A stretch of 64,000 nt of DNA from Aurelia coerulea (lineage: Eukaryota; Cnidaria; Scyphozoa; Semaeostomeae; Ulmaridae). Below, in pieces: positions 19,780 to 64,000 of the stretch. A program made the position numbers and the translations under genes. The stretch's first letter is position 1. Every line of letters begins with the position of its first letter. The stretch lies in the NCBI GenBank assembly GCA_039566865.1, contig CM076949.1, positions 7,727,501-7,791,500 of the forward strand. The letters are read 5' to 3'. The notes beneath the pieces are model-generated. The model was not told the origin of the DNA. It did not search any database and saw only the letters and a program-made list of their open reading frames with translations.

Positions 19780-19827
19780 GAAATTCGCAAGAAAGTGTCT
19801 CCATTGATTAAAGCTTTACAAAGTGAG
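19780..19827 (+). CDS. CUX1: CASP/CUX1 exon 3
   Basis: 48 bases, phase 0 to 0, donor GAG|GTAAGA. It encodes residues 58-73 (EIRKKVSPLIKALQSE), parallel to EDLRKQVAPLLKSFQGE of vertebrate CASP. Confidence 0.9.
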
Positions 19828-34137: not shown

Positions 34138-34200
34138 CGAAGAAGCGCACGCTGGGCTCTTTGATGTCAAAAGCAAATCTGAAGAGGAAGGTGTGGCAAG
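34138..34200 (+). pseudogene. Degenerate duplicate of CASP exon 10
   Basis: 63 bases in intron 8 reproduce exon 10 (36049-36115) in the same frame: EEAHAGLFDVKSKSEEEGVAR against EESHAGLFDVKSKSEEEAAAR. Several differences are silent third-position changes. No polypyrimidine tract and AG precede it in phase, and the GT donor is gone (AAG|ATATAC). The bases after it (ACAGCGTGTCCCATAAAG) resemble the CCGGGTGTCCC transposon end that lies 8 bases past the real exon 10. Confidence 0.75.
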
Positions 34201-35233
34201 ATATACAGCGTGTCCCATAAAGATTGTTCGATGTTTGATTGAATATTGAAGAATAACGATAACATAAACTGGCACATGGGAAGGAGATTTTGAAAAAGGT
34301 TTTAAAGACCAGATCTTGCAAATCCGTTGAAAGTTCACTGAGTTGCGAGCTTTCAAAGATAAGAATATGCGACAGCTGAAATCAGAGACCCCTAGCTGAC
34401 TTGTAATGCAAAAAAGTTGTTTTCAAGTCATTCAATCTAAAGAAAGATAAGGTAGCCTCTCACTAGACTTATGACCGGGAGTCCCTTATTTTCTTGTGCT
34501 CTTTCACTTGATGATGTCGCTTCCGTCAACAGAGACTCATTATAAAACTCTGAAGAACCTGACCCTATTACCGGATGCAAAGCTCTGAAATTGAAAAGGA
34601 GCTAGAATCCTCGGGTCCCAGTGCTCCCTTTGGGATATGCCCATCCAATCGATATTCCCCAAGGGAATTCATACCATATAAAAACAAAGAATGCGATCTG
34701 GCCATTCTTCTTCAGCAACTCGCGAGATGCTGCAAGAGCTCCCCTTCATTCCTCCCGCAGCGACGCTTTTCAACTCTCCTCCTTTCAAGTAGCAAACCTC
34801 TTGCGCACTCTCCATATCTTAGTCATTTGAAAAGAAGAGAGAGTGAAAACCGGTGAGAAGATAGCACTATTTAGGCCTTTGCAATTGATTAGATTTGAAA
34901 GAAGTTGCTGCGAGAGGTGGTTGGATATTTCTTGTGAATTTTAAAACTTGGAAATTGTAGCGTTAAAAGACTTATTTTGCACTCACCAGATAAAGTGAAC
35001 TTCTTCTTCAGATGTACAGTAGGTTTTTGTTTGCTTGGCGTAATTTTTATTGCATTTCATTTGTGAGGAGTAACCGTTGAACAGAGCCGAAAGCAGTTGA
35101 ATAAAGAATACACAAAATTGCCAGCTTTTCGGTATGAGTCCCTGTTGAGCAAGATTCAAGAATAAAGAATACACATTTTAGAAAAACCCCTATGCTGTTT
35201 AACTAAAGTTGTGTTTGTTTTATTTCTTGCTAG
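34201..35233. other. CASP intron 8, right part
   Basis: AT-rich intron between the exon-10 copy and exon 9. No convincing exon or complete element. A frame at 34575-34856 has no family features. Confidence 0.4.
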
Positions 35234-36048: not shown

Positions 36049-36115
36049 ATTTAGAAGAATCACATGCTGGGCTCTTTGATGTCAAGAGCAAATCCGAGGA
36101 AGAAGCTGCCGCAAG
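36049..36115 (+). CDS. CUX1: CASP/CUX1 exon 10
   Basis: Acceptor TTCTCCTATAG, 67 bases, donor AAG|GTAAAT. It encodes residues 213-234 (DLEESHAGLFDVKSKSEEEA, then AA) plus two bases, parallel to TRTELFDLKTKYDEETTAK. A foldback transposon begins only ten bases after the exon end, and a decayed duplicate of this exon lies upstream at 34138. Confidence 0.92.
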
Positions 36116-38394: not shown

Positions 38395-39810
38395 CGTATA
38401 TGGCCTAAACAATTGAGTACATTTAGACAACACACTTTCCGTTTTTATTGCGGCTTATAGACGAGCATATGGCACCCAGCATGTCTTGATACGTCTGATC
38501 GAAGATTGGAGGTCTAACCTCGACAACGACTATCTTGTAGGTGCTATCCTAATGGATCTTTCAAAAGCCTTTGACTGCATCCCACATGATCTGCTTAATT
38601 GCAAAATTACATGCATATGGATTCGAAGAAGACGCACTTGTCCTTACCTATTCTTATCTCAAACGACGGAAACAAAGCGTTCGGATAAATAATACGTACA
38701 GTTCTTTTCAAGAGTTGATATCTGGTGTACCCCAAGGATCGGTGCTTGGCCCAATTCTGTTTAATTTCTACATAAATGATTTATTTTTTTCATAAAACAG
38801 GCAACTCTCTACAATTATGCTGACGACAATACACTCACTTATTTTTCAAAAAGCATGCCCTATCTTGTCAATATTTTAGAAAAAGAAACTAGAATTGCTT
38901 TATCCTGGCTAAAGCAAAATGAAATGATTGCCAACCCTGAAAAATTCCATGCTTTATTGCTCAGAGAAAACCAAGCAAATACTAGTGGTGAACAAATTAA
39001 CATTAACGGTAGTGTAATCAAATCTGAGGAGACTGTCAAACTCTTAGGAGTCACTTTGGATTATAAACTTGATTTCGACCCACATATTTCGAATCTTTGC
39101 AAAAAGGCTGCTACACAGTTAAATGTTCTTAAAAGATTAAAGACGTTTATTGGCTTTGAGGAAAAAAAGGTCCTTGTTCAGAGTTTCGTATATTCAAATT
39201 TCGATTATTGCCCCTTGGTGTGGTATTTCTCATCTTCCAAGTCATTACAGAAAATAGAAAAATTACAAGAACGCGCTCTAAGGTTTCTCTACAACGATCA
39301 TACAAGTTCATATGACGATCTGCTTTTGAAATCAAACAAATGCACCATGCAGGTTGCTCGCCAAAGAATTCTTTGCATCGAAATATTCAAAACATTGAAT
39401 CATCTGAATCCACCATTCATGCGGAGCCTTTTCGAATTACGTTCTTCAAATTATTCGTTAAGAAATCCAAATAACTTAGCCCATGTTAGGCCCAATCAAG
39501 CAACGTTTGGATCCAGGAGTCACAAGTCCGTAGGACCGCAGATCTGGAATGGCCTACCAAACGAACTAAAATCAGCAGAAAATTTGAGAAGTTTTAAGAT
39601 TTTAATAAAACAATGGGACGGCCCCAATTGCACATGTAATGCATGCAACCTAACTATATAATTTGGAAAAATATTTTTTTTTTATTTAATTAATACTGTA
39701 TATTCGATTTTGATTAGTTGACGTGTATATATTTAATGTATATATTGTTAGCTATTAATGTAGATAATCGAATTTAAATAAATTACACACACACACACAG
39801 TCTAAATCAT
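38395..39810 (+). mobile_element. 5'-truncated non-LTR retrotransposon (LINE)
   Basis: The plus strand encodes the reverse transcriptase part of a jockey/CR1-like LINE. Motifs in order are LMDLSKAFDCIPHDLL (about 38551-38599), a one-base frameshift, LIAKLHAYGF, SGVPQGSVLGPILFNFYIND (about 38721-38780), a second frameshift and the YADD active site at 38816-38827. A long intact C-terminal frame follows to 39661. The 3' end is AAATAAATTACACACACACA, likely the element tail. The endonuclease and ORF1 are absent. Same strand as the host gene, in intron 11. Confidence 0.85.
38855..39661 (+). pseudogene. LINE reverse transcriptase, C-terminal frame
   Basis: A 268-codon frame covers the thumb region and tail of the LINE polymerase: ALSWLKQNEMIANPEKFH, KLLGVTLDYKLDFDPHI, ANFDYCPLVW-like YSNFDYCPLVWYFSSSKSLQ, KIEKLQERALRFL and GPQIWNGLPNELK near the end. 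The catalytic YADD lies just upstream of the first ATG, so this frame alone cannot be an active enzyme; it is the intact remainder of a frameshifted ORF2. Confidence 0.85.
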
Positions 39811-45560: not shown

Positions 45561-45936
45561 GTCACGTGCGTGGATGTCTTCTCTGTCTGATCAAATTAGC
45601 CTATTGACTCATTTTTTATATGATTTTGAAGGAAGAGTCACGTGCGTGGATGTCTTCTCTGTCCTAGTTACAGATTAACTTTGCCCAGCTCCGTTCATTC
45701 GCTTTCAAGATAGGCTAGGTTCTTGCCCCATAGACTCATGAATTATGTGATATATGTTGTTAAAAGGTATTCGTTGAAGGAAGAGAAACATTAACGTGCG
45801 TAGGTGACTTCTCTGTCCTATTTACAGATTACCTTTGCTTAGCTCCGTTCATTCGCTTTCAAGATAGGTTAGGTTCTTGCCCCATAGACTCATGAATTAT
45901 GTGATATATGTTGTTAAAAGGTATTTGTTAAAAATC
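45561..45936 (+). repeat. Diverged tandem duplication in intron 16
   Basis: A unit of about 165 bases (GTGCGTGGATGTCTTCTCTG, then AGCTCCGTTCATTCGCTTTC, then CATAGACTCATGAATTATGT and TGTTGTTAAAAGGTATT) occurs twice, at about 45634-45770 and 45790-45930. A partial third copy of its start (GTGCGTGGATGTCTTCTCTG) is at 45567. Confidence 0.8.
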
Positions 45937-46223: not shown

Positions 46224-46276
46224 AAAGCGCAATTAGAGCAACAGAAAGATTACGATGAAATGAAGAGGGAACTAAG
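46224..46276 (+). CDS. CUX1: CASP/CUX1 exon 17, last exon in window
   Basis: Acceptor CCTTCTTAG, 53 bases, donor AAG|GTAATT. It encodes residues 350-366 (KAQLEQQKDYDEMKREL) and two bases of the next codon, matching LEEKLKGQADYEEVKKEL of vertebrate CASP. The tandem array starts at its donor. If splicing used any downstream repeat donor instead, the next codons would be AGG TAA, a stop immediately after residue 367. The next exon lies to the right of the window, so this intron exceeds 17.7 kb. Confidence 0.92.
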
Positions 46277-49200
46277 GTAATTCTGTTTATATTTCGTGTT
46301 TTTACCAAAGAGAAGTAAGGTAATTTTGTTTATATTTCGTGTTTTTACCAAAGAGAAGTAAGGTAATTCTGTTTATATTTCGTGTTTTTACCAAAGAGAA
46401 GTAAGGTAATTCTGTTTATATTTCGTGTTTTTACCAAAGAGAAGTAAGGTAATTCTGTTTATATTTCGTGTTTTTACCAAAGAGAAGTAAGGTAATTCTG
46501 TTTAATTTCGTGTTTTTACCAAAGAGAAGTAAGGTAATTCTGTTTATATTTCGTGTTTTTACCAAAGAGAAGTAAGGTAATTTTGTTTATATTTCGTGTT
46601 TTTACCAAAGAGAAGTAAGGTAATTCTGTTTATATTTCGTGTTTTTACCAAAGAGAAGTAAGGTAATTTTGTTTATATTTCGTGTTTTTACCAAAGAGAA
46701 GTAAGGTAATTCTGTTTATATTTCGTGTTTTTACCAAAGAGAAGTAAGGTAATTCTGTTTATATTTCGTGTTTTTACCAAAGAGAAGTAAGGTAATTTTG
46801 TTTATATTTCGTGTTTTTACCAAAGGGAACTAAGGTAATTCTGTTTATATTTCGTGTTTTTACCAAAGAGAAGTAAGGTAATTCTGTTTATATTTCGTGT
46901 TTTTACCAAAGAGAAGTAAGGTAATTTTGTTTATATTTCGTGTTTTTACCAAAGGGAACTAAGGTAATTCTGTTTATATTTCGTGTTTTTACCAAAGAGA
47001 AGTATGGTAATTCTGTTTATATTTCGTGTTTTTACCAAAGAGAAGTAAGGTAATTCTGTTTATATTTCGTGTTTTTACCAAAGAGAAGTAAGGTAATTTT
47101 GTTTATATTTCGTGTTTTTACCAAAGAGAAGTAAGGTAATTCTGTTTATATTTCGTGTTTTTACCAAAGAGAAGTAAGGTAATTTTGTTTATATTTCGTG
47201 TTTTTACCAAAGAGAAGTAAGGTAATTCTGTTTATATTTCGTGTTTTTACCAAAGAGAAGTAAGGTAATTCTGTTTATATTTCGTGTTTTTACCAAAGAG
47301 AAGTAAGGTAATTCTGTTTAATTTCGTGTTTTTACCAAAGAGAAGTAAGGTAATTCTGTTTATATTTCGTGTTTTTACCAAAGAGAAGTAAGGTAATTTT
47401 GTTTATATTTCGTGTTTTTACCAAAGAGAAGTAAGGTAATTCTGTTTATATTTCGTGTTTTTACCAAAGAGAAGTAAGGTAATTTTGTTTATATTTCGTG
47501 TTTTTACCAAAGAGAAGTAAGGTAATTCTGTTTATATTTCGTGTTTTTACCAAAGAGAAGTAAGGTAATTCTGTTTATATTTCGTGTTTTTACCAAAGAG
47601 AAGTAAGGTAATTTTGTTTATATTTCGTGTTTTTACCAAAGGGAACTAAGGTAATTCTGTTTATATTTCGTGTTTTTACCAAAGAGAAGTAAGGTAATTC
47701 TGTTTATATTTCGTGTTTTTACCAAAGAGAAGTAAGGTAATTTTGTTTATATTTCGTGTTTTTACCAAAGGGAACTAAGGTAATTCTGTTTATATTTCGT
47801 GTTTTTACCAAAGAGAAGTAAGGTAATTCTGTTTATATTTCGTGTTTTTACCAAAGAGAAGTAAGGTAATTCTGTTTATATTTCGTGTTTTTACCAAAGA
47901 GAAGTAAGGTAATTTTGTTTATATTTCGTGTTTTTACCAAAGAGAAGTAAGGTAATTCTGTTTATATTTCGTGTTTTTACCAAAGAGAAGTAAGGTAATT
48001 TTGTTTATATTTCGTGTTTTTACCAAAGAGAAGTAAGGTAATTCTGTTTATATTTCGTGTTTTTACCAAAGAGAAGTAAGGTATATTTCGTGTTTTTTTA
48101 TATTTCGTGTTTTTACCAAAGAGAAGTAAGGTAATTCTGTTTAATTTCGTGTTTTTACCAAAGAGAAGTAAGGTAATTCTGTTTATATTTCGTGTTTTTA
48201 CCAAAGAGAAGTAAGGTAATTTTGTTTAATTTCGTGTTTTTACCAAAGAGAAGTAAGGTAATTTTGTTTAATTTCGTGTTTTTACCAAAGAGAAGTAAGG
48301 TAATTTTGTTTATATTTCGTGTTTTTACCAAAGAGAAGTAAGGTAATTCTGTTTAATTTCGTGTTTTTACCAAAGAGAAGTAAGGTAATTCTGTTTATAT
48401 TTCGTGTTTTTACCAAAGAGAAGTAAGGTAATTTTGTTTATATTTCGTGTTTTTACCAAAGAGAAGTAAGGTAATTCTGTTTATATTTCGTGTTTTTACC
48501 AAAGAGAAGTAAGGTAATTTTGTTTATATTTCGTGTTTTTACCAAAGAGAAGTAAGGTAATTCTGTTTATAATTCATGTTTTTACCAAAGAGAAGTAAGG
48601 TAATTTTGTTTATATTTCATGTTTTTACCAAAGAGAAGTAAGGTAATTTTGTTTATATTTCGTGTTTTTACCAAAGAGAAGTAAGGTAATTCTGTTTAAT
48701 TTCGTGTTTTTACCAAAGAGAAGTAAGGTAATTCTGTTTATATTTCGTGTTTTTACCAAAGAGAAGTAAGGTAATTCTGTTTAATTTCGTGTTTTTACCA
48801 AAGAGAAGTAAGGTAATTTTGTTTATATTTCGTGTTTTTACCAAAGAGAAGTAAGGTAATTCTGTTTATAATTCATGTTTTTACCAAAGAGAAGTAAGGT
48901 AATTTTGTTTATATTTCATGTTTTTACCAAAGAGAAGTAAGGTAATTTTGTTTATATTTCGTGTTTTTACCAAAGAGAAGTAAGGTAATTCTGTTTATAT
49001 TTCGTGTTTTTACCAAAGAAAAGTAAGGTAATTCTGTTTAATTTCGTGTTTTTACCAAAGAGAAGTAAGGTAATTCTGTTTAATTTCGTGTTTTTACCAA
49101 AGAGAAGTAAGGTAATTTTGTTTATATTTCATGTTTTTACCAAAGAGAAGTAAGGTAATTTTGTTTATATTTCATGTTTTTACCAAAGAGAAGTAAGGTA

Positions 49201-52200
49201 ATTCTGTTTAATTTCGTGTTTTTACCAAAGAGAAGTAAGGTAATTTTGTTTATATTTCATGTTTTTACCAAAGAGAAGTAAGGTAATTTTGTTTATATTT
49301 CGTGTTTTTACCAAAGAGAAGTAAGGTAATTCTGTTTAATTTCGTGTTTTTACCAAAGAGAAGTAAGGTAATTCTGTTTAATTTCGTGTTTTTACCAAAG
49401 AGAAGTAAGGTAATTCTGTTTAATTTCGTGTTTTTACCAAAGAGAAGTAAGGTAATTTTGTTTATATTTCATGTTTTTACCAAAGAGAAGTAAGGTAATT
49501 TTGTTTATATTTCATGTTTTTACCAAAGAGAAGTAAGGTAATTCTGTTTAATTTCGTGTTTTTACCAAAGAGAAGTAAGGTAATTTTGTTTATATTTCAT
49601 GTTTTTACCAAAGAGAAGTAAGGTAATTTTGTTTATATTTCGTGTTTTTACCAAAGAGAAGTAAGGTAATTCTGTTTAATTTCGTGTTTTTACCAAAGAG
49701 AAGTAAGGTAATTCTGTTTAATTTCGTGTTTTTACCAAAGAGAAGTAAGGTAATTCTGTTTAATTTCGTGTTTTTACCAAAGAGAAGTAAGGTAATTCTG
49801 TTTAATTTCGTGTTTTTACCAAAGAGAAGTAAGGTAATTTTGTTTATATTTCATGTTTTTACCAAAGAGAAGTAAGGTAATTTTGTTTATATTTCGTGTT
49901 TTTACCAAAGAGAAGTAAGGTAATTTTGTTTATATTTCGTGTTTTTACCAAAGAGAAGTAAGGTAATTCTGTTTAATTTCGTGTTTTTACCAAAGAGAAG
50001 TAAGGTAATTCTGTTTATATTTCGTGTTTTTACCAAAGAGAAGTAAGGTAATTCTGTTTAATTTCGTGTTTTTACCAAAGAGAAGTAAGGTAATTTTGTT
50101 TAATTTCGTGTTTTTACCAAAGAGAAGTAAGGTAATTCTGTTTATAATTCATGTTTTTACCAAAGAGAAGTAAGGTAATTTTGTTTATATTTCATGTTTT
50201 TACCAAAGAGAAGTAAGGTAATTTTGTTTATATTTCGTGTTTTTACCAAAGAGAAGTAAGGTAATTCTGTTTAATTTCGTGTTTTTACCAAAGAGAAGTA
50301 AGGTAATTCTGTTTAATTTCGTGTTTTTACCAAAGAGAAGTAAGGTAATTTTGTTTATATTTCGTGTTTTTACCAAAGAGAAGTAAGGTAATTCTGTTTA
50401 TAATTCATGTTTTTACCAAAGAGAAGTAAGGTAATTTTGTTTATATTTCATGTTTTTACCAAAGAGAAGTAAGGTAATTTTGTTTATATTTCGTGTTTTT
50501 ACCAAAGAGAAGTAAGGTAATTTTGTTTAATTTCGTGTTTTTACCAAAGAGAAGTAAGGTAATTTTGTTTAATTTCGTGTTTTTACCAAAGAGAAGTAAG
50601 GTAATTTTGTTTATATTTCGTGTTTTTACCAAAGAGAAGTAAGGTAATTCTGTTTATAATTCATGTTTTTACCAAAGAGAAGTAAGGTAATTTTGTTTAT
50701 ATTTCATGTTTTTACCAAAGAGAAGTAAGGTAATTTTGTTTATATTTCGTGTTTTTACCAAAGAGAAGTAAGGTAATTTTGTTTATATTTCGTGTTTTTA
50801 CCAAAGAGAAGTAAGGTAATTCTGTTTATATTTCGTGTTTTTAACAAAGAGAAGTAAGGTAATTTTGTTTATATTTCGTGTTTTTACCAAAGAGAAGTAA
50901 GGTAATTTTGTTTATATTTCGTGTTTTTACCAAAGAGAAGTAAGGTAATTTTGTTTAATTTCGTGTTTTTACCAAAGAGAAGTAAGGTAATTTTGTTTAT
51001 ATTTCGTATTTTTACCAAAGAGAAGTAAGGTAATTCTGTTTATATTTCGTGTTTTTACCAAAGAGAAGTAAGGTAATTTTGTTTATATTTCGTGTTTTTA
51101 CCAAAGAGAAGTAAGGTAATTCTGTTTATGTTTCGTGTTTTTACCAAAGAGAAGTAATGTAATTCTGTTTAATTTCGTGTTTTTACCAAAGAGAAGTAAG
51201 GTAATTTTGTTTATATTTCGTGTTTTTACCAAAGAGAAGTAAGGTAATTTTGTTTAATTTCGTGTTTTTACCAAAGAGAAGTAAGGTAATTTTGTTTAAT
51301 TTCGTGTTTTTACCAAAGAGAAGTAAGGTAATTTTGTTTATATTTCGTGTTTTTACCAAAGAGAAGTAAGGTAATTCTGTTTATATTTCGTGTTTTTACC
51401 AAAGAGAAGTAAGGTAATTCTGTTTATATTTCGTGTTTTTACCAAAGAGAAGTAAGGTAATTTTGTTTATATTTCATGTTTTTACCAAAGAGAAGTAAGG
51501 TAATTTTGTTTATATTTCGTGTTTTTACCAAAGAGAAGTAAGGTAATTTTGTTTATATTTCATGTTTTTACCAAAGAGAAGTAAGGTAATTTTGTTTATA
51601 TTTCATGTTTTTACCAAAGAGAAGTAAGGTAATTCTGTTTAATTTCGTGTTTTTACCAAAGAGAAGTAAGGTAATTTTGTTTATATTTCATGTTTTTACC
51701 AAAGAGAAGTAAGGTAATTTTGTTTATATTTCGTGTTTTTACCAAAGAGAAGTAAGGTAATTCTGTTTAATTTCGTGTTTTTACCAAAGAGAAGTAAGGT
51801 AATTCTGTTTAATTTCGTGTTTTTACCAAAGAGAAGTAAGGTAATTCTGTTTAATTTCGTGTTTTTACCAAAGAGAAGTAAGGTAATTTTGTTTATATTT
51901 CATGTTTTTACCAAAGAGAAGTAAGGTAATTTTGTTTATATTTCATGTTTTTACCAAAGAGAAGTAAGGTAATTCTGTTTAATTTCGTGTTTTTACCAAA
52001 GAGAAGTAAGGTAATTTTGTTTATATTTCATGTTTTTACCAAAGAGAAGTAAGGTAATTTTGTTTATATTTCGTGTTTTTACCAAAGAGAAGTAAGGTAA
52101 TTCTGTTTAATTTCGTGTTTTTACCAAAGAGAAGTAAGGTAATTCTGTTTAATTTCGTGTTTTTACCAAAGAGAAGTAAGGTAATTCTGTTTAATTTCGT

Positions 52201-55200
52201 GTTTTTACCAAAGAGAAGTAAGGTAATTTTGTTTATATTTCATGTTTTTACCAAAGAGAAGTAAGGTAATTTTGTTTATATTTCATGTTTTTACCAAAGA
52301 GAAGTAAGGTAATTCTGTTTAATTTCGTGTTTTTACCAAAGAGAAGTAAGGTAATTCTGTTTAATTTCGTGTTTTTACCAAAGAGAAGTAAGGTAATTCT
52401 GTTTATATTTCGTGTTTTTACCAAAGAGAAGTAAGGTAATTCTGTTTAATTTCGTGTTTTTACCAAAGAGAAGTAAGGTAATTTTGTTTATATTTCGTGT
52501 TTTTACCAAAGAGAAGTAAGGTAATTCTGTTTATAATTCATGTTTTTACCAAAGAGAAGTAAGGTAATTTTGTTTATATTTCATGTTTTTACCAAAGAGA
52601 AGTAAGGTAATTTTGTTTATATTTCGTGTTTTTACCAAAGAGAAGTAAGGTAATTCTGTTTAATTTCGTGTTTTTACCAAAGAGAAGTAAGGTAATTCTG
52701 TTTAATTTCGTGTTTTTACCAAAGAGAAGTAAGGTAATTTTGTTTATATTTCGTGTTTTTACCAAAGAGAAGTAAGGTAATTCTGTTTATAATTCATGTT
52801 TTTACCAAAGAGAAGTAAGGTAATTTTGTTTATATTTCATGTTTTTACCAAAGAGAAGTAAGGTAATTTTGTTTATATTTCGTGTTTTTACCAAAGAGAA
52901 GTAAGGTAATTTTGTTTAATTTCGTGTTTTTACCAAAGAGAAGTAAGGTAATTTTGTTTAATTTCGTGTTTTTACCAAAGAGAAGTAAGGTAATTTTGTT
53001 TCTATTTCGTGTTTTTACCAAAGAGAAGTAAGGTTATTCTGTTTATAATTCATGTTTTTACCAAAGAGAAGTAAGGTAATTTTGTTTATATTTCATGTTT
53101 TTACCAAAGAGAAGTAAGGTAATTTTGTTTATATTTCGTGTTTTTACCAAAGAGAAGTAAGGTAATTTTGTTTATATTTCGTGTTTTTACCAAAGAGAAG
53201 TAAGGTAATTCTGTTTATATTTCGTGTTTTTAACAAAGAGAAGTAAGGTAATTTTGTTTATATTTCGTGTTTTTACCAAAGAGAAGTAATGTAATTTTGT
53301 TTATATTTCGTGTTTTTACCAAAGAGAAGTAAGGTAATTTTGTTTAATTTCGTGTTTTTACCAAAGAGAGGTAAGGTAATTTTGTTTATATTTCGTGTTT
53401 TTACCAAAGAGAAGTAAGGTAATTCTGTTTATATTTCGTGTTTTTACCAAAGAGAAGTAAGGTAATTTTGTTTATATTTCGTGTTTTTACCAAAGAGAAG
53501 TAAGGTAATTCTGTTTATGTTTCGTGTTTTTACCAAAGAGAAGTAATGTAATTCTGTTTAATTTCGTGTTTTTACCAAAGAGAAGTAAGGTAATTTTGTT
53601 TATATTTCGTGTTTTTACCAAAGAGAAGTAAGGTAATTTTGTTTAATTTCGTGTTTTTACCAAAGAGAAGTAAGGTAATTTTGTTTAATTTCGTGTTTTT
53701 ACCAAAGAGAAGTAAGGTAATTTTGTTTATATTTCGTGTTTTTACCAAAGAGAAGTAAGGTAATTCTGTTTATATTTCGTGTTTTTACCAAAGAGAAGTA
53801 AGGTAATTCTGTTTATATTTCGTGTTTTTACCAAAGAGAAGTAAGGTAATTCTGTTTATATTTCGTGTTTTTACCAAAGAGAAGTAAGGTAATTTTGTTT
53901 ATATTTCGTGTTTTTACCAAAGAGAAGTAAGGTAATTCTGTTTATATTTCGTGTTTTTACCAAAGAGAAGTAAGGTAATTCTGTTTATATTTCGTGTTTT
54001 TACCAAAGAGAAGTAAGGTAATTCTGTTTAATTTCGTGTTTTTACCAAAGAGAAGTAAGGTAATTCTGTTTAATTTCGTGTTTTTACCAAAGAGAAGTAA
54101 GGTAATTCTGTTTATATTTCGTGTTTTTACCAAAGAGAAGTAAGGTAATTCTGTTTATGTTTCGTGTTTTTACCAAAGAGAAGTAATGTAATTCTGTTTA
54201 ATTTCATGTTTTTACCAAAGAGAAGTAAGGTAATTCTGTTTATGTTTCGTGTTTTTACCAAAGAGAAGTAAGGTAATTCTGTTTATATTTCGTGTTTTTA
54301 CCAAAGAGAAGTAAGGTAATTCTGTTTATGTTTCGTGTTTTTACCAAAGAGAAGTAAGGTAATTCTGTTTATATTTCATGTTTTTACCAAAGAGAAGTAA
54401 GGTAATTCTGTTTATATTTCGTGTTTTTACCAAAGAGAAGTAAGGTAATTCTGTTTATATTTCGTGTTTTTACCAAAGAGAAGTAAGGTAATTCTGTTTA
54501 TATTTCGTGTTTTTACCAAAGAGAAGTAAGGTAATTCTGTTTAATTTCGTGTTTTTACCAAAGAGAAGTAAGGTAATTCTGTTTATGTTTCGTGTTTTTA
54601 CCAAAGAGAAGTAAGGTAATTCTGTTTATATTTCGTGTTTTTACCAAAGAGAAGTAAGGTAATTCTGTTTATGTTTCGTGTTTTTACCAAAGAGAAGTAA
54701 GGTAATTCTGTTTATATTTCGTGTTTTTACCAAAGAGAAGTAAGGTAATTCTGTTTATGTTTCGTGTTTTTACCAAAGAGAAGTAAGGTAATTTTGTTTA
54801 TATTTCGTGTTTTTACCAAAGGGAACTAAGGTAATTCTGTTTATATTTCGTGTTTTTACCAAAGAGAAGTAAGGTAATTCTGTTTAATTTCGTGTTTTTA
54901 CCAAAGAGAAGTAATGTAATTCTGTTTATATTTCGTGTTTTTACCAAAGAGAAGTAAGGTAATTCTGTTTATGTTTCGTGTTTTTACCAAAGAGAAGTAA
55001 GGTAATTTTGTTTATATTTCGTGTTTTTACCAAAGGGAACTAAGGTAATTCTGTTTATATTTCGTGTTTTTACCAAAGAGAAGTAAGGTAATTCTGTTTA
55101 ATTTCGTGTTTTTACCAAAGAGAAGTAATGTAATTCTGTTTATATTTCGTGTTTTTACCAAAGAGAAGTAAGGTAATTCTGTTTATGTTTCGTGTTTTTA

Positions 55201-58200
55201 CCAAAGAGAAGTAAGGTAATTCTGTTTATATTTCGTGTTTTTACCAAAGAGAAGTAAGGTAATTCTGTTTATGTTTCGTGTTTTTACCAAAGAGAAGTAA
55301 GGTAATTTTGTTTATATTTCGTGTTTTTACCAAAGGGAACTAAGGTAATTCTGTTTATATTTCGTGTTTTTACCAAAGAGAAGTAAGGTAATTCTGTTTA
55401 ATTTCGTGTTTTTACCAAAGAGAAGTAAGGTAATTCTGTTTATATTTCGTGTTTTTACCAAAGAGAAGTAAGGTAATTCTGTTTATATTTCGTGTTTTTA
55501 CCAAAGAGAAGTAAGGTAATTCTGTTTATATTTCGTGTTTTTACCAAAGAGAAGTAAGGTAATTCTGTTTATATTTCGTGTTTTTACCAAAGAGAAGTAA
55601 GGTAATTCTGTTTATATTTCGTGTTTTTACCAAAGAGAAGTAAGGTAATTCTGTTTATGTTTCGTGTTTTTACCAAAGAGAAGTAAGGTAATTCTGTTTA
55701 ATTTCGTGTTTTTACCAAAGAGAAGTAAGGTAATTCTGTTTATATTTCGTGTTTTTACCAAAGAGAAGTAAGGTAATTCTGTTTATGTTTCGTGTTTTTA
55801 CCAAAGAGAAGTAAGGTAATTCTGTTTAATTTCGTGTTTTTACCAAAGAGAAGTAAGGTAATTCTGTTTATATTTCGTGTTTTTACCAAAGAGAAGTAAG
55901 GTAATTCTGTTTATATTTCGTGTTTTTACCAAAGAGAAGTAAGGTAATTCTGTTTAATTTCGTGTTTCTACCAAAGAGAAGTAAGGTAATTCTGTTTATG
56001 TTTCGTGTTTTTACCAAAGAGAAGTAATGTAATTCTGTTTAATTTCGTGTTTTTACCAAAGAGAAGTAAGGTAATTCTGTTTAATTTCGTGTTTTTACCA
56101 AAGAGAAGTAAGGTAATTCTGTTTATATTTCGTGTTTTTACCAAAGAGAAGTAAGGTAATTCTGTTTATATTTCGTGTTTTTACCAAAGAGAAATAAGGT
56201 AATTCTGTTTATGTTTCGTGTTTTTACCAAAGAGAAGTAAGGTAATTCTGTTTATGTTTCGTGTTTTTACCAAAGAGAAGTAAGGTAATTCTGTTTATAT
56301 TTCGTGTTTTTACCAAAGAGAAGTAAGGTAATTCTGTTTATATTTCGTGTTTTTACCAAAGAGAAGTAAGGTAATTCTGTTTATATTTCGTGTTTTTACC
56401 AAAGAGAAGTAAGGTAATTCTGTTTATGTTTCGTGTTTTTACCAAAGAGAAGTAAGGTAATTCTGTTTATATTTCGTGTTTTTACCAAAGAGAAGTAAGG
56501 TAATTCTGTTTATATTTCGTGTTTTTACCAAAGAGAAGTAAGGTAATTCTGTTTATGTTTCGTGTTTTTACCAAAGAGAAGTAAGGTAATTCTGTTTAAT
56601 TTCGTGTTTTTACCAAAGAGAAGTAATGTAATTCTGTTTATATTTCGTGTTTTTACCAAAGAGAAGTAAGGTAATTCTGTTTATATTTCGTGTTTTTACC
56701 AAAGAGAAGTAAGGTAATTCTGTTTAATTTCGTGTTTTTACCAAAGAGAAGTAAGTTAATTCTGTTTATGTTTCGTGTTTTTACCAAAGAGAAGTAATGT
56801 AATTCTGTTTAATTTCGTGTTTTTACCAAAGAGAAGTAAGGTAATTCTGTTTAATTTCGTGTTTTTACCAAAGAGAAGTAAGGTAATTCTGTTTATGTTT
56901 CGTGTTTTTACCAAAGAGAAGTAAGGTAATTCTGTTTATATTTCGTGTTTTTACCAAAGAGAAGTAAGGTAATTCTGTTTATATTTCGTGTTTTTACCAA
57001 AGAGAAGTAAGGTAATTCTGTTTAATTTCGTGTTTTTACCAAAGAGAAGTAAGGTAATTCTGTTTATGTTTCATGTTTTTACCAAAGAGAAGTAATGTAA
57101 TTCTGTTTAATTTCGTGTTTTTACCAAAGAGAAGTAAGGTAATTCTGTTTAATTTCGTGTTTTTACCAAAGAGAAGTAAGGTAATTCTGTTTATGTTTCG
57201 TGTTTTTACCAAAGAGAAGTAAGGTAATTCTGTTTATATTTCGTGTTTTTACCAAAGAGAAGTAAGGTAATTCTGTTTAATTTCGTGTTTTTACCAAAGA
57301 GAAGTAAGGTAATTTTGTTTATATTTCGTGTTTTTACGAAAGAGAAGTAAGGTAATTCTGTTTAATTTCGTGTTTTTACCAAAGAGAAGTAAGGTAATTT
57401 TGTTTATATTTCATGTTTTTACCAAAGAGAAGTAAGGTAATTTTGTTTATATTTCATGTTTTTACCAAAGAGAAGTAAGGTAATTCTGTTTAATTTCGTG
57501 TTTTTACCAAAGAGAAGTAAGGTAATTCTGTTTAATTTCGTGTTTTTACCAAAGAGAAGTAAGGTAATTCTGTTTATATTTCGTGTTTTTACCAAAGAGA
57601 AGTAAGGTAATTCTGTTTAATTTCGTGTTTTTACCAAAGAGAAGTAAGGTAATTTTGTTTATATTTCGTGTTTTTACCAAAGAGAAGTAAGGTAATTCTG
57701 TTTATAATTCATGTTTTTACCAAAGAGAAGTAAGGTAATTTTGTTTATATTTCATGTTTTTACCAAAGAGAAGTAAGGTAATTTTGTTTATATTTCGTGT
57801 TTTTACCAAAGAGAAGTAAGGTAATTCTGTTTAATTTCGTGTTTTTACCAAAGAGAAGTAAGGTAATTCTGTTTAATTTCGTGTTTTTACCAAAGAGAAG
57901 TAAGGTAATTTTGTTTTATATTTCGTGTTTTTACCAAAGAGAAGTAAGGTAATTCTGTTTACAATTCATGTTTTTACCAAAGAGAAGTAAGGTAATTTTG
58001 TTTATATTTCATGTTTTTACCAAAGAGAAGTAAGGTAATTTTGTTTATATTTCGTGTTTTTACCAAAGAGAAGTAAGGTAATTTTGTTTAATTTCGTGTT
58101 TTTACCAAAGAGAAGTAAGGTAATTTTGTTTAATTTCGTGTTTTTACCAAAGAGAAGTAAGGTAATTTTGTTTCTATTTCGTGTTTTTACCAAAGAGAAG

Positions 58201-59234
58201 TAAGGTAATTCTGTTTATAATTCATGTTTTTACCAAAGAGAAGTAAGGTAATTTTGTTTATATTTCATGTTTTTACCAAAGAGAAGTAAGGTAATTTTGT
58301 TTATATTTCGTGTTTTTACCAAAGAGAAGTAAGGTAATTTTGTTTATATTTCGTGTTTTTACCAAAGAGAAGTAAGGTAATTCTGTTTATATTTCGTGTT
58401 TTTAACAAAGAGAAGTAAGGTAATTTTGTTTATATTTCGTGTTTTTACCAAAGAGAAGTAAGGTAATTTTGTTTATATTTCGTGTTTTTACCAAAGAGAA
58501 GTAAGGTAATTTTGTTTAATTTCGTGTTTTTACCAAAGAGAGGTAAGGTAATTTTGTTTATATTTCGTGTTTTTACCAAAGAGAAGTAAGGTAATTCTGT
58601 TTATATTTCGTGTTTTTACCAAAGAGAAGTAAGGTAATTTTGTTTATATTTCGTGTTTTTACCAAAGAGAAGTAAGGTAATTCTGTTTATGTTTCGTGTT
58701 TTTACCAAAGAGAAGTAATGTAATTCTGTTTAATTTCGTGTTTTTACCAAAGAGAAGTAAGGTAATTTTGTTTATATTTCGTGTTTTTACCAAAGAGAAG
58801 TAAGGTAATTTTGTTTAATTTCGTGTTTTTACCAAAGAGAAGTAAGGTAATTTTGTTTAATTTCGTGTTTTTACCAAAGAGAAGTAAGGTAATTTTGTTT
58901 ATATTTCGTGTTTTTACCAAAGAGAAGTAAGGTAATTCTGTTTATATTTCGTGTTTTTACCAAAGAGAAGTAAGGTAATTCTGTTTATATTTCGTGTTTT
59001 TACCAAAGAGAAGTAAGGTAATTCTGTTTATATTTCGTGTTTTTACCAAAGAGAAGTAAGGTAATTTTGTTTATATTTCGTGTTTTTACCAAAGAGAAGT
59101 AAGGTAATTCTGTTTATATTTCGTGTTTTTACCAAAGAGAAGTAAGGTAATTCTGTTTATATTTCGTGTTTTTACCAAAGAGAAGTAAGGTAATTCTGTT
59201 TAATTTCGTGTTTTTACCAAAGAGAAGTAAGGTA
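46277..59234 (+). repeat. 42/43-bp minisatellite of 5' splice-site units, main block
   Basis: About 300 head-to-tail copies start exactly at the exon 17 donor. The unit reads GTAATTCTGTTTATATTTCG, then TGTTTTTACC, then AAAGAGAAGTAAG: 43 bases, or 42 when TATATTT is TAATTT. Variants include TTTTG/TTCTG, TATGTTTCG, TATATTTCATG, TATAATTCATG, AAGTAATG (donor changed) and AAAGGGAACTAAG. The last repeats the final ten exon bases, GGGAACTAAG. The 42-base form is divisible by three and makes spurious 14-residue periodic frames on the plus strand; these are not genes. Confidence 0.97.
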
Positions 59235-62200
59235 GGGTAAGACGGGGTAAAGTGAACTATTTTGGAGGTTTTTCAAGGATATCTTAAAGAGACAGTAGTT
59301 GAGGGCAAACTTTTTAACGTTGTTTTGACATTATGTCTTTGGGTCAGTTTATCCAGCAAAAAAAATTTTCAAATATTTTTCCATTGTCTCACAAAAGAGC
59401 TTTCTTTGGTGACCGCTGTGCCTAGTTCACTTTACCCCAGGCCGGGGTAAAGTGAACTACTTAGCAATTGTTCGATAAAACCAAAATGATGCTGGTAATA
59501 CCCGAAAACATGATTTATTTTGCAACTCTAAGGTGTCCTTCGCATGCCAAAACGAAACAGACCTAACAATTTCGCAAAAGGGAATTTAAAAAAAGTTAAA
59601 TGGTGACCTATGCAGAGAACGATCTGTGCAGATCAAATATTTACCAAAAACTATTGTGTCAAAGTCACAAATTCGAGTCAGATTGCGAGACCTGAATGCA
59701 ATTCGATGAACAATAATGGGAATATACTTGGAAAATAATATATTGCACATAAATACCAAATCACTAAAAAGAGAAACACTATTTTCAAAATAATTCACTG
59801 TGCCCTGAAACCTACGCCCAGAAATAAAATCAAGAATAGTTATAAATCTATAACAATTATCAATATTCTAATTTCACAGTGATGGCCCTTTTTCCTTTCT
59901 ATGTCCATAGGTATACTTGCTTCATCAAATCCCAATAAAATTCTTGGATCAAAAGCCGTATTTTTCAATGAAGATCAAACTTCGGCTGTCAAATTTTTGG
60001 AGGTTTTTCAGGGAGCTGGTATCAGAATATATTTCTGTGTCATCAGAGCGAAAAATTATCCTGGAAATTATGATTTTTTGAAGGCATTGTTATGAGCCAA
60101 ATGAGGTTGAAACGGTCTTCTTCATCTGACTTCATGTTCACATGTGAATATAAAAAGTTATGGGTAGTTCACTTTACCCCGGTCGAAGCAAAATATTGAC
60201 TGAACGGTAGATCTTTTAAAATATCATGTTAACTGACAAAAAAGTCTCTCTTGGCCCTTTCCTTTTGGAAAACGTAAACACATGGTATGTGCTTCAAATC
60301 CATCAAAACAATTATAGAAATGAATTTCTTCTTGGGGTCAAAAATTAAGATCGAAGATAGAAGCCCAAACCTAAGAACCATAATTTCCCGAGGTTGTTTT
60401 TACTGCCTGGGGTAAAGGGATTTTTTGCAACAACAGGAAGAAATATTTTGCAAAAATGTTTTCATTTTCTGTGAGCACATGTAACAAAGCATTGGGCATA
60501 AATCATGTTTTATCATTGCATGTTTACTTTTGGAGAGAAGCGCGAATGTTCTGAGTAGTTCACTTTACCCCGTAGTTCACTTTACCCCGTCTTACCCTAA
60601 TTCTGTTTAATTTCGTGTTTTTACCAAAGAGAAGTAAGGTAATTCTGTTTATATTTCGTGTTTTTACCAAAGAGAAGTAAGGTAATTCTGTTTATGTTTC
60701 GTGTTTTTACCAAAGAGAAGTAATGTAATTCTGTTTAATTTCATGTTTTTACCAAAGAGAAGTAAGGTAATTCTGTTTATGTTTCGTGTTTTTACCAAAG
60801 AGAAGTAAGGTAATTCTGTTTATATTTCGTGTTTTTACCAAAGAGAAGTAAGGTAATTCTGTTTATGTTTCGTGTTTTTACCAAAGAGAAGTAAGGTAAT
60901 TCTGTTTATATTTCATGTTTTTACCAAAGAGAAGTAAGGTAATTCTGTTTATATTTCGTGTTTTTACCAAAGAGAAGTAAGGTAATTCTGTTTATATTTC
61001 GTGTTTTTACCAAAGAGAAGTAAGGTAATTCTGTTTATATTTCGTGTTTTTACCAAAGAGAAGTAAGGTAATTCTGTTTAATTTCGTGTTTTTACCAAAG
61101 AGAAGTAAGGTAATTCTGTTTATGTTTCGTGTTTTTACCAAAGAGAAGTAATGTAATTCTGTTTATATTTCGTGTTTTTACCAAAGAGAAGTAAGGTAAT
61201 TCTGTTTATGTTTCGTGTTTTTACCAAAGAGAAGTAAGGTAATTCTGTTTATATTTCGTGTTTTTACCAAAGAGAAGTAAGGTAATTCTGTTTATGTTTC
61301 GTGTTTTTACCAAAGAGAAGTATGGTAATTTTGTTTATATTTCGTGTTTTTACCAAAGGGAACTAAGGTAATTCTGTTTATATTTCGTGTTTTTACCAAA
61401 GAGAAGTAAGGTAATTCTGTTTAATTTCGTGTTTTTACCAAAGAGAAGTAATGTAATTCTGTTTATATTTCGTGTTTTTACCAAAGAGAAGTAAGGTAAT
61501 TCTGTTTATGTTTCGTGTTTTTACCAAAGAGAAGTAAGGTAATTTTGTTTATATTTCGTGTTTTTACCAAAGGGAACTAAGGTAATTCTGTTTATATTTC
61601 GTGTTTTTACCAAAGAGAAGTAAGGTAATTCTGTTTAATTTCGTGTTTTTACCAAAGAGAAGTAATGTAATTCTGTTTATATTTCGTGTTTTTACCAAAG
61701 AGAAGTAAGGTAATTCTGTTTATGTTTCGTGTTTTTACCAAAGAGAAGTAAGGTAATTCTGTTTATATTTCGTGTTTTTACCAAAGAGAAGTAAGGTAAT
61801 TCTGTTTATGTTTCGTGTTTTTACCAAAGAGAAGTAAGGTAATTTTGTTTATATTTCGTGTTTTTACCAAAGGGAACTAAGGTAATTCTGTTTATATTTC
61901 GTGTTTTTACCAAAGAGAAGTAAGGTAATTCTGTTTAATTTCGTGTTTTTACCAAAGAGAAGTAAGGTAATTCTGTTTATATTTCGTGTTTTTACCAAAG
62001 AGAAGTAAGGTAATTCTGTTTATATTTCGTGTTTTTACCAAAGAGAAGTAAGGTAATTCTGTTTATATTTCGTGTTTTTACCAAAGAGAAGTAAGGTAAT
62101 TCTGTTTATATTTCGTGTTTTTACCAAAGAGAAGTAAGGTAATTCTGTTTATATTTCGTGTTTTTACCAAAGAGAAGTAAGGTAATTCTGTTTAATTTCG

Positions 62201-63600
62201 TGTTTCTACCAAAGAGAAGTAAGGTAATTCTGTTTATGTTTCGTGTTTTTACCAAAGAGAAGTAATGTAATTCTGTTTAATTTCGTGTTTTTACCAAAGA
62301 GAAGTAAGGTAATTCTGTTTAATTTCGTGTTTTTACCAAAGAGAAGTAAGGTAATTCTGTTTATATTTCGTGTTTTTACCAAAGAGAAGTAAGGTAATTC
62401 TGTTTATATTTCGTGTTTTTACCAAAGAGAAATAAGGTAATTCTGTTTATGTTTCGTGTTTTTACCAAAGAGAAGTAAGGTAATTCTGTTTATGTTTCGT
62501 GTTTTTACCAAAGAGAAGTAAGGTAATTCTGTTTATATTTCGTGTTTTTACCAAAGAGAAGTAAGGTAATTCTGTTTATATTTCGTGTTTTTACCAAAGA
62601 GAAGTAAGGTAATTCTGTTTATATTTCGTGTTTTTACCAAAGAGAAGTAAGGTAATTCTGTTTATGTTTCGTGTTTTTACCAAAGAGAAGTAAGGTAATT
62701 CTGTTTATATTTCGTGTTTTTACCAAAGAGAAGTAAGGTAATTCTGTTTATATTTCGTGTTTTTACCAAAGAGAAGTAAGGTAATTCTGTTTATGTTTCG
62801 TGTTTTTACCAAAGAGAAGTAAGGTAATTCTGTTTAATTTCGTGTTTTTACCAAAGAGAAGTAATGTAATTCTGTTTATATTTCGTGTTTTTACCAAAGA
62901 GAAGTAAGGTAATTCTGTTTATATTTCGTGTTTTTACCAAAGAGAAGTAAGGTAATTCTGTTTAATTTCGTGTTTTTACCAAAGAGAAGTAAGGTAATTC
63001 TGTTTATGTTTCGTGTTTTTACCAAAGAGAAGTAATGTAATTCTGTTTAATTTCGTGTTTTTACCAAAGAGAAGTAAGGTAATTCTGTTTAATTTCGTGT
63101 TTTTACCAAAGAGAAGTAAGGTAATTCTGTTTATGTTTCGTGTTTTTACCAAAGAGAAGTAAGGTAATTCTGTTTATATTTCGTGTTTTTACCAAAGAGA
63201 AGTAAGGTAATTCTGTTTATATTTCGTGTTTTTACCAAAGAGAAGTAAGGTAATTCTGTTTAATTTCGTGTTTTTACCAAAGAGAAGTAAGGTAATTCTG
63301 TTTATGTTTCGTGTTTTTACCAAAGAGAAGTAATGTAATTCTGTTTAATTTCGTGTTTTTACCAAAGAGAAGTAAGGTAATTCTGTTTAATTTCGTGTTT
63401 TTACCAAAGAGAAGTAAGGTAATTCTGTTTATGTTTCGTGTTTTTACCAAAGAGAAGTAAGGTAATTCTGTTTATATTTCGTGTTTTTACCAAAGAGAAG
63501 TAAGGTAATTCTGTTTAATTTCGTGTTTTTACCAAAGAGAAGTAAGGTAATTTTGTTTATATTTCGTGTTTTTACGAAAGAGAAGTAAGGTAATTCAGTT
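52220..63600 (+). repeat. 5.2-kb higher-order duplication inside the array
   Basis: The order of unit variants at about 52220-57390 is repeated at about 57395-63600, with an offset of about 5172 bases before the inserted transposon and about 6535 after it. Rare markers line up: TATAATTCATG (52530/57704), TTTCTATTTCG (52999/58172), TTAACAAAG (53232/58403), GAGAGGTAAGG (53366/58540), and TTACGAAAG (57339/63571). One copy differs by about 7 units (near 55335-55966 against 61870-62203). A shorter shift of about 2390 bases relates 49900-51400 to 52300-53800. Confidence 0.8.
59235..60597. mobile_element. TA-flanked transposon inserted in the array, 1363 bp
   Basis: Ends GGGTAAGACGGGGTAAAGTG and CACTTTACCCCGTCTTACCC are perfect inverted repeats, flanked by TA (59233-59234, 60598-60599). 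The word GGGGTAAAGTGAACT is repeated inside in both orientations: 59424-59438, 59443-59457, 60166-60180, 60557-60571 and 60574-60588. This gives clustered subterminal sites, as in transposase-binding arrays. Open frames are under 75 codons, so it is non-autonomous. Tc1/mariner-type insertion is inferred from the TA duplication. Confidence 0.88.
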
Positions 63601-64000
63601 TAATTTCGTGTTTTTACCAAAGAGAAGTAAGGTAATTCTGTTTATATTTCGTGTTTTTACCAAAGAGAAGTAAGGTAATTCTGTTTATATTTCGTGTTTT
63701 TACCAAAGAGAAGTAAGGTAATTCTGTTTAATTTCGTCTTTTTACCAAAGAGAAGTAAGGTAATTTTGTTTATATTTCGTGTTTTTACCAAAGAGAAGTA
63801 AGGTAATTTTGTTTATATTTCGTGTTTTTACCAAAGAGAAGTAAGGTAATTCTGTTTATATTTCGTGTTTTTACCAAAGAGAAGTAAGGTAATTTTGTTT
63901 AATTTCGTGTTTTTACCAAAGAGAAGTAAGGTAATTCTGTTTAATTTCGTGTTTTTACCAAAGAGAAGTAAGGTAATTCTGTTTAATTTCGTGTTTTTAC
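60598..64000 (+). repeat. 42/43-bp minisatellite, second block, continues past window
   Basis: About 80 further units of the same array resume after the transposon and run to the window edge. TATGTTTCG and AAGTAATG variants are more frequent here than in the first 2 kb. The array end and the next CASP exon are not in the window. Confidence 0.97.

Follow-up and report, generated by a model that had tools for sequence, protein, structure and literature searches.

A minisatellite of about 485 units born at a 5' splice site of the CASP gene in Aurelia coerulea

The CASP gene and its array

Here we analyse a stretch of 64,000 nucleotides from the scyphozoan Aurelia coerulea (contig CM076949.1, C7 for short, positions 7,727,501 to 7,791,500 of the forward strand; hereafter the window), in which a tandem array occupies most of one intron of a gene identified from its sequence as the Golgi gene CASP, and begins with the 5' splice site of the exon before it. 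The genome searched is the assembly GCA_039566865.1, with 574,161,440 bp in 294 contigs, and the stretches adjoining the window were read as well; positions without a contig name are window coordinates, continued beyond the window end where needed.

The assignment of the gene to CASP follows from CASP exons that flank the array, a continuous frame, the CASP_C domain and the homologs. With a human CASP sequence as the tblastn query, the better pieces align in order from 19102 to 97700 (plus-strand rows only; weak matches out of order are also in the list). One open frame runs over ten joined exons (35234-73167), among them the two next to the array, and the CASP_C domain (PF08172) matches three downstream exons on the plus strand above the family cut-off (C7:7823515, 7825087 and 7848939). 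The assembled part of the protein is 42-49% identical to the best 120 of 319 homologs, which are mostly named CASP or CUX1 and come from many animals. Up to the array 15 coding exons are found, one of them with an unverified end, while the first exon or exons are not found. The intron that bears the array extends over 24,319 nt (46277-70595), the next exon (70596-70641) continues the frame, and the intron upstream of the 53-nt exon has 828 nt.

The array itself has about 485 units and a size of about 23.5 kb, the copy number being that of one assembly. It ends at 69758, having run on for 5.8 kb outside the window, and together with two transposons it makes up 97% of the intron, so that only the last 837 nt lie outside. 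The period is 42-43 bp, and 480 of 484 segments measure 41-44 bp; the other four are one scrambled stretch of 93 nt and three segments broken by the two transposons. Allowing one substitution, the donor 9-mer has 484 matches, one of them by chance inside a transposon, and these are divided into 456 exact copies of AAGGTAATT, 21 of AATGTAATT and 7 other variants. The tail AGAGAAGTAAG is shared by 437 of 484 units. Within the window alone, GTAATT is counted 379 times and AAGTAAGGTAATT 343 times. With tandem units in the range of roughly 10-100 bp, the array is a minisatellite. Chance or assembly noise was considered as its source and rejected, as the array is continuous and strand-specific, has distinct internal variants and contains its exact founder.

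A sequence-only reading of the window had already placed the array on the sense strand of CASP, derived it from a real 5' splice site, and described an intron longer than 17.7 kb with one real donor and hundreds of near-identical ones. All of this agrees with the frame, PF08172 and the homologs, with the actual exon/intron junction as first unit, with the full intron length, and with the 456 exact 9-mers of which the authentic donor is the first. Two of its statements need correction. The array does begin with the real splice site, but its start is 11 nt inside the exon and not at the junction; the figure of about 380 units fits the 379 GTAATT in the window, but the full array runs past the window to about 485. 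The features are collected in Table 1.

Table 1. Positions of the CASP array and of the features within and beside it
Feature	Position	Strand	Description
Tandem array	46266..64000 in the window, on to 69758 (C7 7797258)	+	unit AGRGAASTAAG|GTAATT(C/T)TGTTTATATTTCGTGTTTTTACCAA, 42-43 bp
Coding exon before the array (exon 17 of the sequence-only reading)	46224..46276 (53 nt)	+	KAQLEQQKDYDEMKREL + 2 nt; in frame with the exons on both sides
Authentic 5' splice site, AAG|GTAATT	46274..46282	+	GT at 46277; donor of the first unit; next exon continues the frame
First unit	46266..46308	+	AGGGAACTAAG from the exon (11 nt), then 32 nt of intron
Irregular stretch of the array, one scrambled unit	48027..48119 (93 nt)	+	from the unit segmentation
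Internal block duplication, copy 1	51958..55633	+	86 units, 3.68 kb
Internal block duplication, copy 2, interrupted by a transposon	57128..62170	+	99.7% identical to copy 1, transposon left out
Transposon	59235..60597		inverted ends GGGTAAGACGGGGTAAAGTGAACTA, TA target duplication; inserted in the donor of one unit (GGTA)
Second transposon copy	67425-68784 (beyond the window)		inserted at the same unit position, GGTA

Some further observations concern CASP upstream of the array. One CASP exon is present in two similar copies, at 34139-34201 (EEAHAGLFDVKSKSEEEGVAR) and at 36049-36115 (EESHAGLFDVKSKSEEEAAAR); the former is not immediately followed by a GT donor and may no longer be functional, and the latter joins the frame. 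By eye, frames resembling reverse transcriptase are seen at 38417-39661 in a CASP intron, probably as the remnant of a long interspersed nuclear element (LINE). In addition, a 154-bp sequence is repeated 1.9 times at 45640-45929, in the intron just 5' of the 53-nt exon.

Origin and growth of the array at the splice junction

The array was born at the CASP splice junction as a minisatellite, by tandem duplication in place, since its unit consists of the exon end and the intron start and the series begins at the real junction. The 43-mer of the first unit is composed of AGGGAACTAAG from the exon and GTAATTCTG...TTTTTACCAA from the intron, and is found exactly in 11 units, namely the first and 10 in the interior. 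Repeated templating from the exon was considered for these 10 interior units and rejected. All of them follow the same neighbour type, in one case with an extra change, and their descent from one copy inside the array is thus the simplest account.

The course of events may be pictured as follows. A 43-bp segment astride the exon/intron junction, with 11 nt of exon and 32 nt of intron, would have been tandemly duplicated in place, and the array would then have grown by unequal exchange or block duplication to its about 23.5 kb. A block of 86 units does recur 121 units away, with 75 of the 86 units identical, and the transposon at 59235 is present in only one of the two copies. Such duplications on the scale of kilobases suggest that the array may be polymorphic in length between individuals. 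Unequal exchange at the first unit would presumably still leave the exon end with its donor; as every intact unit copies the last 11 nt of the exon together with the donor, the array could expand or contract without breaking the gene. The two transposons in the array are 91.6% identical and sit in different units at the same base. Their shared GGTA insertion site may reflect a target preference or chance, the unit having five TA sites.

The repeat is private to this locus. Its 30-mer core, searched with at most 3 mismatches, has 344 matches in the whole genome, with none on the other strand and none for the reversed control, and the 104 kb around the locus also hold 344. The exact 13-mer AAGTAAGGTAATT has 447 forward and 15 reverse matches in the genome, against 22 and 23 for the controls; 439 of the 447 lie at the locus, so that elsewhere it is found at chance level only. 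A dispersed satellite landing at the junction was therefore rejected, the core being found only here. The array resembles ordinary satellite DNA in being long and homogeneous with block duplications. However, satellite DNA is expected at several loci, whereas 344 of 344 core matches lie at CASP; the array is intragenic, and its origin is visible in the adjoining exon.

Donor choice and possible consequences for CASP

The authentic donor matches the consensus at 7 of 9 positions and is calculated to pair with U1 at about -6.6 kcal/mol, compared with -11.6 for CAG|GTAAGT, the 5' end of U1 being assumed. Donor scoring over the array, a check proposed by the sequence-only reading, gives 458 sites at least as good as the authentic donor, itself counted; 456 of them are its equal and 2 exceed it, whereas flanks of the same length hold 10 and 7. 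AGGTAA is found 457 times in sense and 0 times in antisense, and the array contains 4 AATAAA where either flank of that length has 22. Splicing from any of the 455 exact donors downstream would have one and the same outcome, an added codon followed by TAA, which is the immediate stop that had been foreseen. A second-register donor, GAA|GTAAGG, occurs at 441 places five bases upstream of the main donor; it is weaker and comes from the derived tail. Masking of the donors by RNA structure was also considered and rejected: pairing is possible between GGUAA and the UUACC of the unit, yet the donor bases are predicted to be only about half paired. The RNA of five units is predicted to be less stable than shuffled units (-23.7, where the shuffles average -37.5), with 94% of 300 shuffles as stable or more.

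On the whole, the array is probably a tolerated passenger. The reading we prefer, with a probability of roughly 0.65, is that of a minisatellite grown in place and tolerated by the gene through use of the first donor, the downstream copies being bystanders. The first donor, lying across the 53-nt exon from the acceptor, would be chosen in most transcripts, and the downstream donors would give at most minor leakage to one truncated CASP without the C-terminal domain. That the first donor should mostly win is expected from the 53-nt exon and the introns of 828 and 24,319 nt. In minigenes with two identical donors competing under exon definition and flanking introns of 365 nt, the upstream donor was used exclusively in all that were tested, and a preference for small exons is reported as well (PMC9225289). 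An intron limit of 250 nt is given there, which both flanking introns here exceed.

Several points weigh against the passenger reading. First-donor use would be an expectation carried over from minigenes in cultured cells with 365-nt introns; transcriptome-wide, preference for the upstream donor within exon-size classes amounts to no more than 29-44%, and exon skipping is reported when both donors are very weak and the exon is large (PMC9225289). Repeat units downstream serve as donors in IFI6 (PMC4526556), and retention of an intron can result from an additional donor motif (PMC8706089). The authentic donor is of middling strength, ranking 8 of 18 by a scoring matrix among the donors read by eye in CASP, with the donor at 19827 outside the ranking. 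In favour of the passenger reading, on the other hand, no constraint is shown on the donor positions, which are not conserved beyond chance: 35 change types are seen in 480 units, with 6 in the 9 donor bases where 7.3 are expected (P = 0.38), although with 35 change types the test has low power. The effects proposed by the sequence-only reading, namely titration of U1, donor choice spread along the array, slowed splicing or a switch between products, find no support in these 6 against 7.3 donor changes, in the upstream-only minigenes (PMC9225289) or in the frequency of long arrays in this genome, though some effect may exist.

Among the alternatives, leaky and length-dependent interference is possible but rather unlikely. 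The downstream donors or the bound U1 would here cut the amount of full-length CASP, through mis-splicing to the stop or intron retention, to a degree scaling with array length. It would be favoured by the 458 sites that equal or surpass the authentic donor, itself counted (flanks: 10 and 7), and by the use of repeat units as donors in IFI6 (PMC4526556), while the minigenes with identical donors and 365-nt introns used the upstream donor only (PMC9225289). In a VWF minigene, intron retention was promoted when the exon carried an additional strong 5' splice-site motif ahead of a weak donor, but this decoy lay upstream of the weak site and was the stronger of the two (PMC8706089). Similarly, the 38-bp intronic variable number tandem repeat (VNTR) of TERT shifts the isoform ratio with its length, but is reported to act via G-quadruplexes (PMC11722454), and the commonest units of the CASP array have no GGG run. 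We regard as doubtful a rheostat, tuned or drifting, by which U1 would be held along the nascent CASP RNA and the array length would set the ratio of full-length to truncated (or nuclear retained) product; if true, no larger natural series of a single splice donor would be known to us.

It appears equally doubtful that U1, sitting on hundreds of copies without any splicing there, shields this 24-kb intron against premature polyadenylation or retains the RNA on chromatin. U1 is able to hold RNA at chromatin, and there are hundreds of U1-complementary sites in the sense strand only (AGGTAA, 457 against 0); each is, however, a partial match to U1 (7 of 9, about -6.6 against -11.6 kcal/mol), and the U1-pairing bases are without visible selection. 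The few AATAAA, 4 in the array against 22 per flank, would suit such shielding but follow from the repetition of one unit. Telescripting is an established role of U1 (PMC5499120, PMC10404622). A regulated switch through the array between full-length and truncated CASP, as suggested by the sequence-only reading, seems very improbable to us. The same stop from 455 of 455 downstream exact donors would make its outcome binary, but the donor positions have no detected conservation, and the stop precedes several further exons, for which mRNA decay is the likelier fate. Hardly credible, finally, is recursive splicing, in which the units would act as zero-length exons for a stepwise removal of the intron. 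Most units do carry AG|GT at the donor, but a recursive splice site is recognised by a pyrimidine tract before AG|GT, and the unit consensus has none by the AG: it has AGAGAAGTAAG before GT, and these 11 nt are purine-rich with earlier AGs.

Known systems and other arrays in the genome

Turri, Cuin and Porter (1995) reportedly described a minisatellite in human IFI6 (6-16/G1P3) that supplies multiple splice donors. Both this minisatellite and the CASP array lie at an exon/intron junction and have units that carry the donor. With units of about 12 bp, the IFI6 array presumably has a much smaller number of them, and its extra donors we take to lengthen the protein in frame, whereas the CASP array comprises about 485 units, each 42-43 bp long, and every downstream exact donor would give an immediate stop. 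In IFI6 two downstream units are used and three mRNAs result (PMC4526556). The VNTR6-1 in intron 6 of TERT is also an intronic minisatellite of a coding gene, with a 38-bp unit in tens of copies; it differs in its reported G-quadruplex action and its measured isoform effect, and the abstract is silent on units as donors (PMC11722454). The CASP array does not belong with such G-quadruplex repeats, as its commonest units are without GGG and a single GGG is present in each of the 11 units that bear the exon tail. For intron gain by tandem duplication, AGGT is said to be the duplicated motif. Such gain (PMC4974935) and the CASP array have in common a tandem duplication bearing splice-site sequence. 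The difference is that at CASP the duplication extended an intron that was already there, with an ordinary-looking acceptor ahead of 70596, and a new intron is not in evidence. Searches of the open-licence literature brought up no account of a splice-donor array as large as this one. Overall, the CASP array is an extreme-size form of the known splice-donor minisatellite type, and most likely a passenger.

Long arrays are not rare in this genome, as judged from a small sample: 20 stretches of 10 kb were drawn at positions fixed beforehand on 14 contigs, and 2 of them consist wholly of tandem array. Their periods are 169 and 249/497, with units longer than those of the CASP array, and they are the two samples from C7 (3000001-3010000 and 15000001-15010000), compared with 0 of 18 on the other contigs. 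Among the 101 rows given by Tandem Repeats Finder (TRF) for the 20 stretches, 5 are at least 1 kb, some rows representing one array twice. By a rough estimate, which assumes that about 1/10 of the genome is array, that there are 200,000 introns and that founders are random, tens of arrays would be expected to start on a 5' splice site.

Work on how the spliceosome chooses among equal donors ordinarily relies on minigenes with two or three copies. The CASP array offers a natural experiment, in which the authentic donor is followed by 455 exact copies, mostly at a spacing of 42-43 nt and all with the same easily scored product. RNA from the animal could thus probe the first-donor rule, the occupancy of U1 along the intron and telescripting at an extreme dose. 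The array also shows how a minisatellite can grow from a splice junction without loss of the gene, as each intact unit regenerates the exon end and the donor.

A genome scan for three consensus donors in a row gives 1 forward match; with 145 for the reversed control this is not a clean count of donor arrays, and weaker donors would be missed. The sole forward match is three copies of a 42-bp repeat with CAGGTAAGT on the contig C16; by eye these read as codons (QVSGSSITVPLSQE), and they are probably part of an exon and not a donor array.

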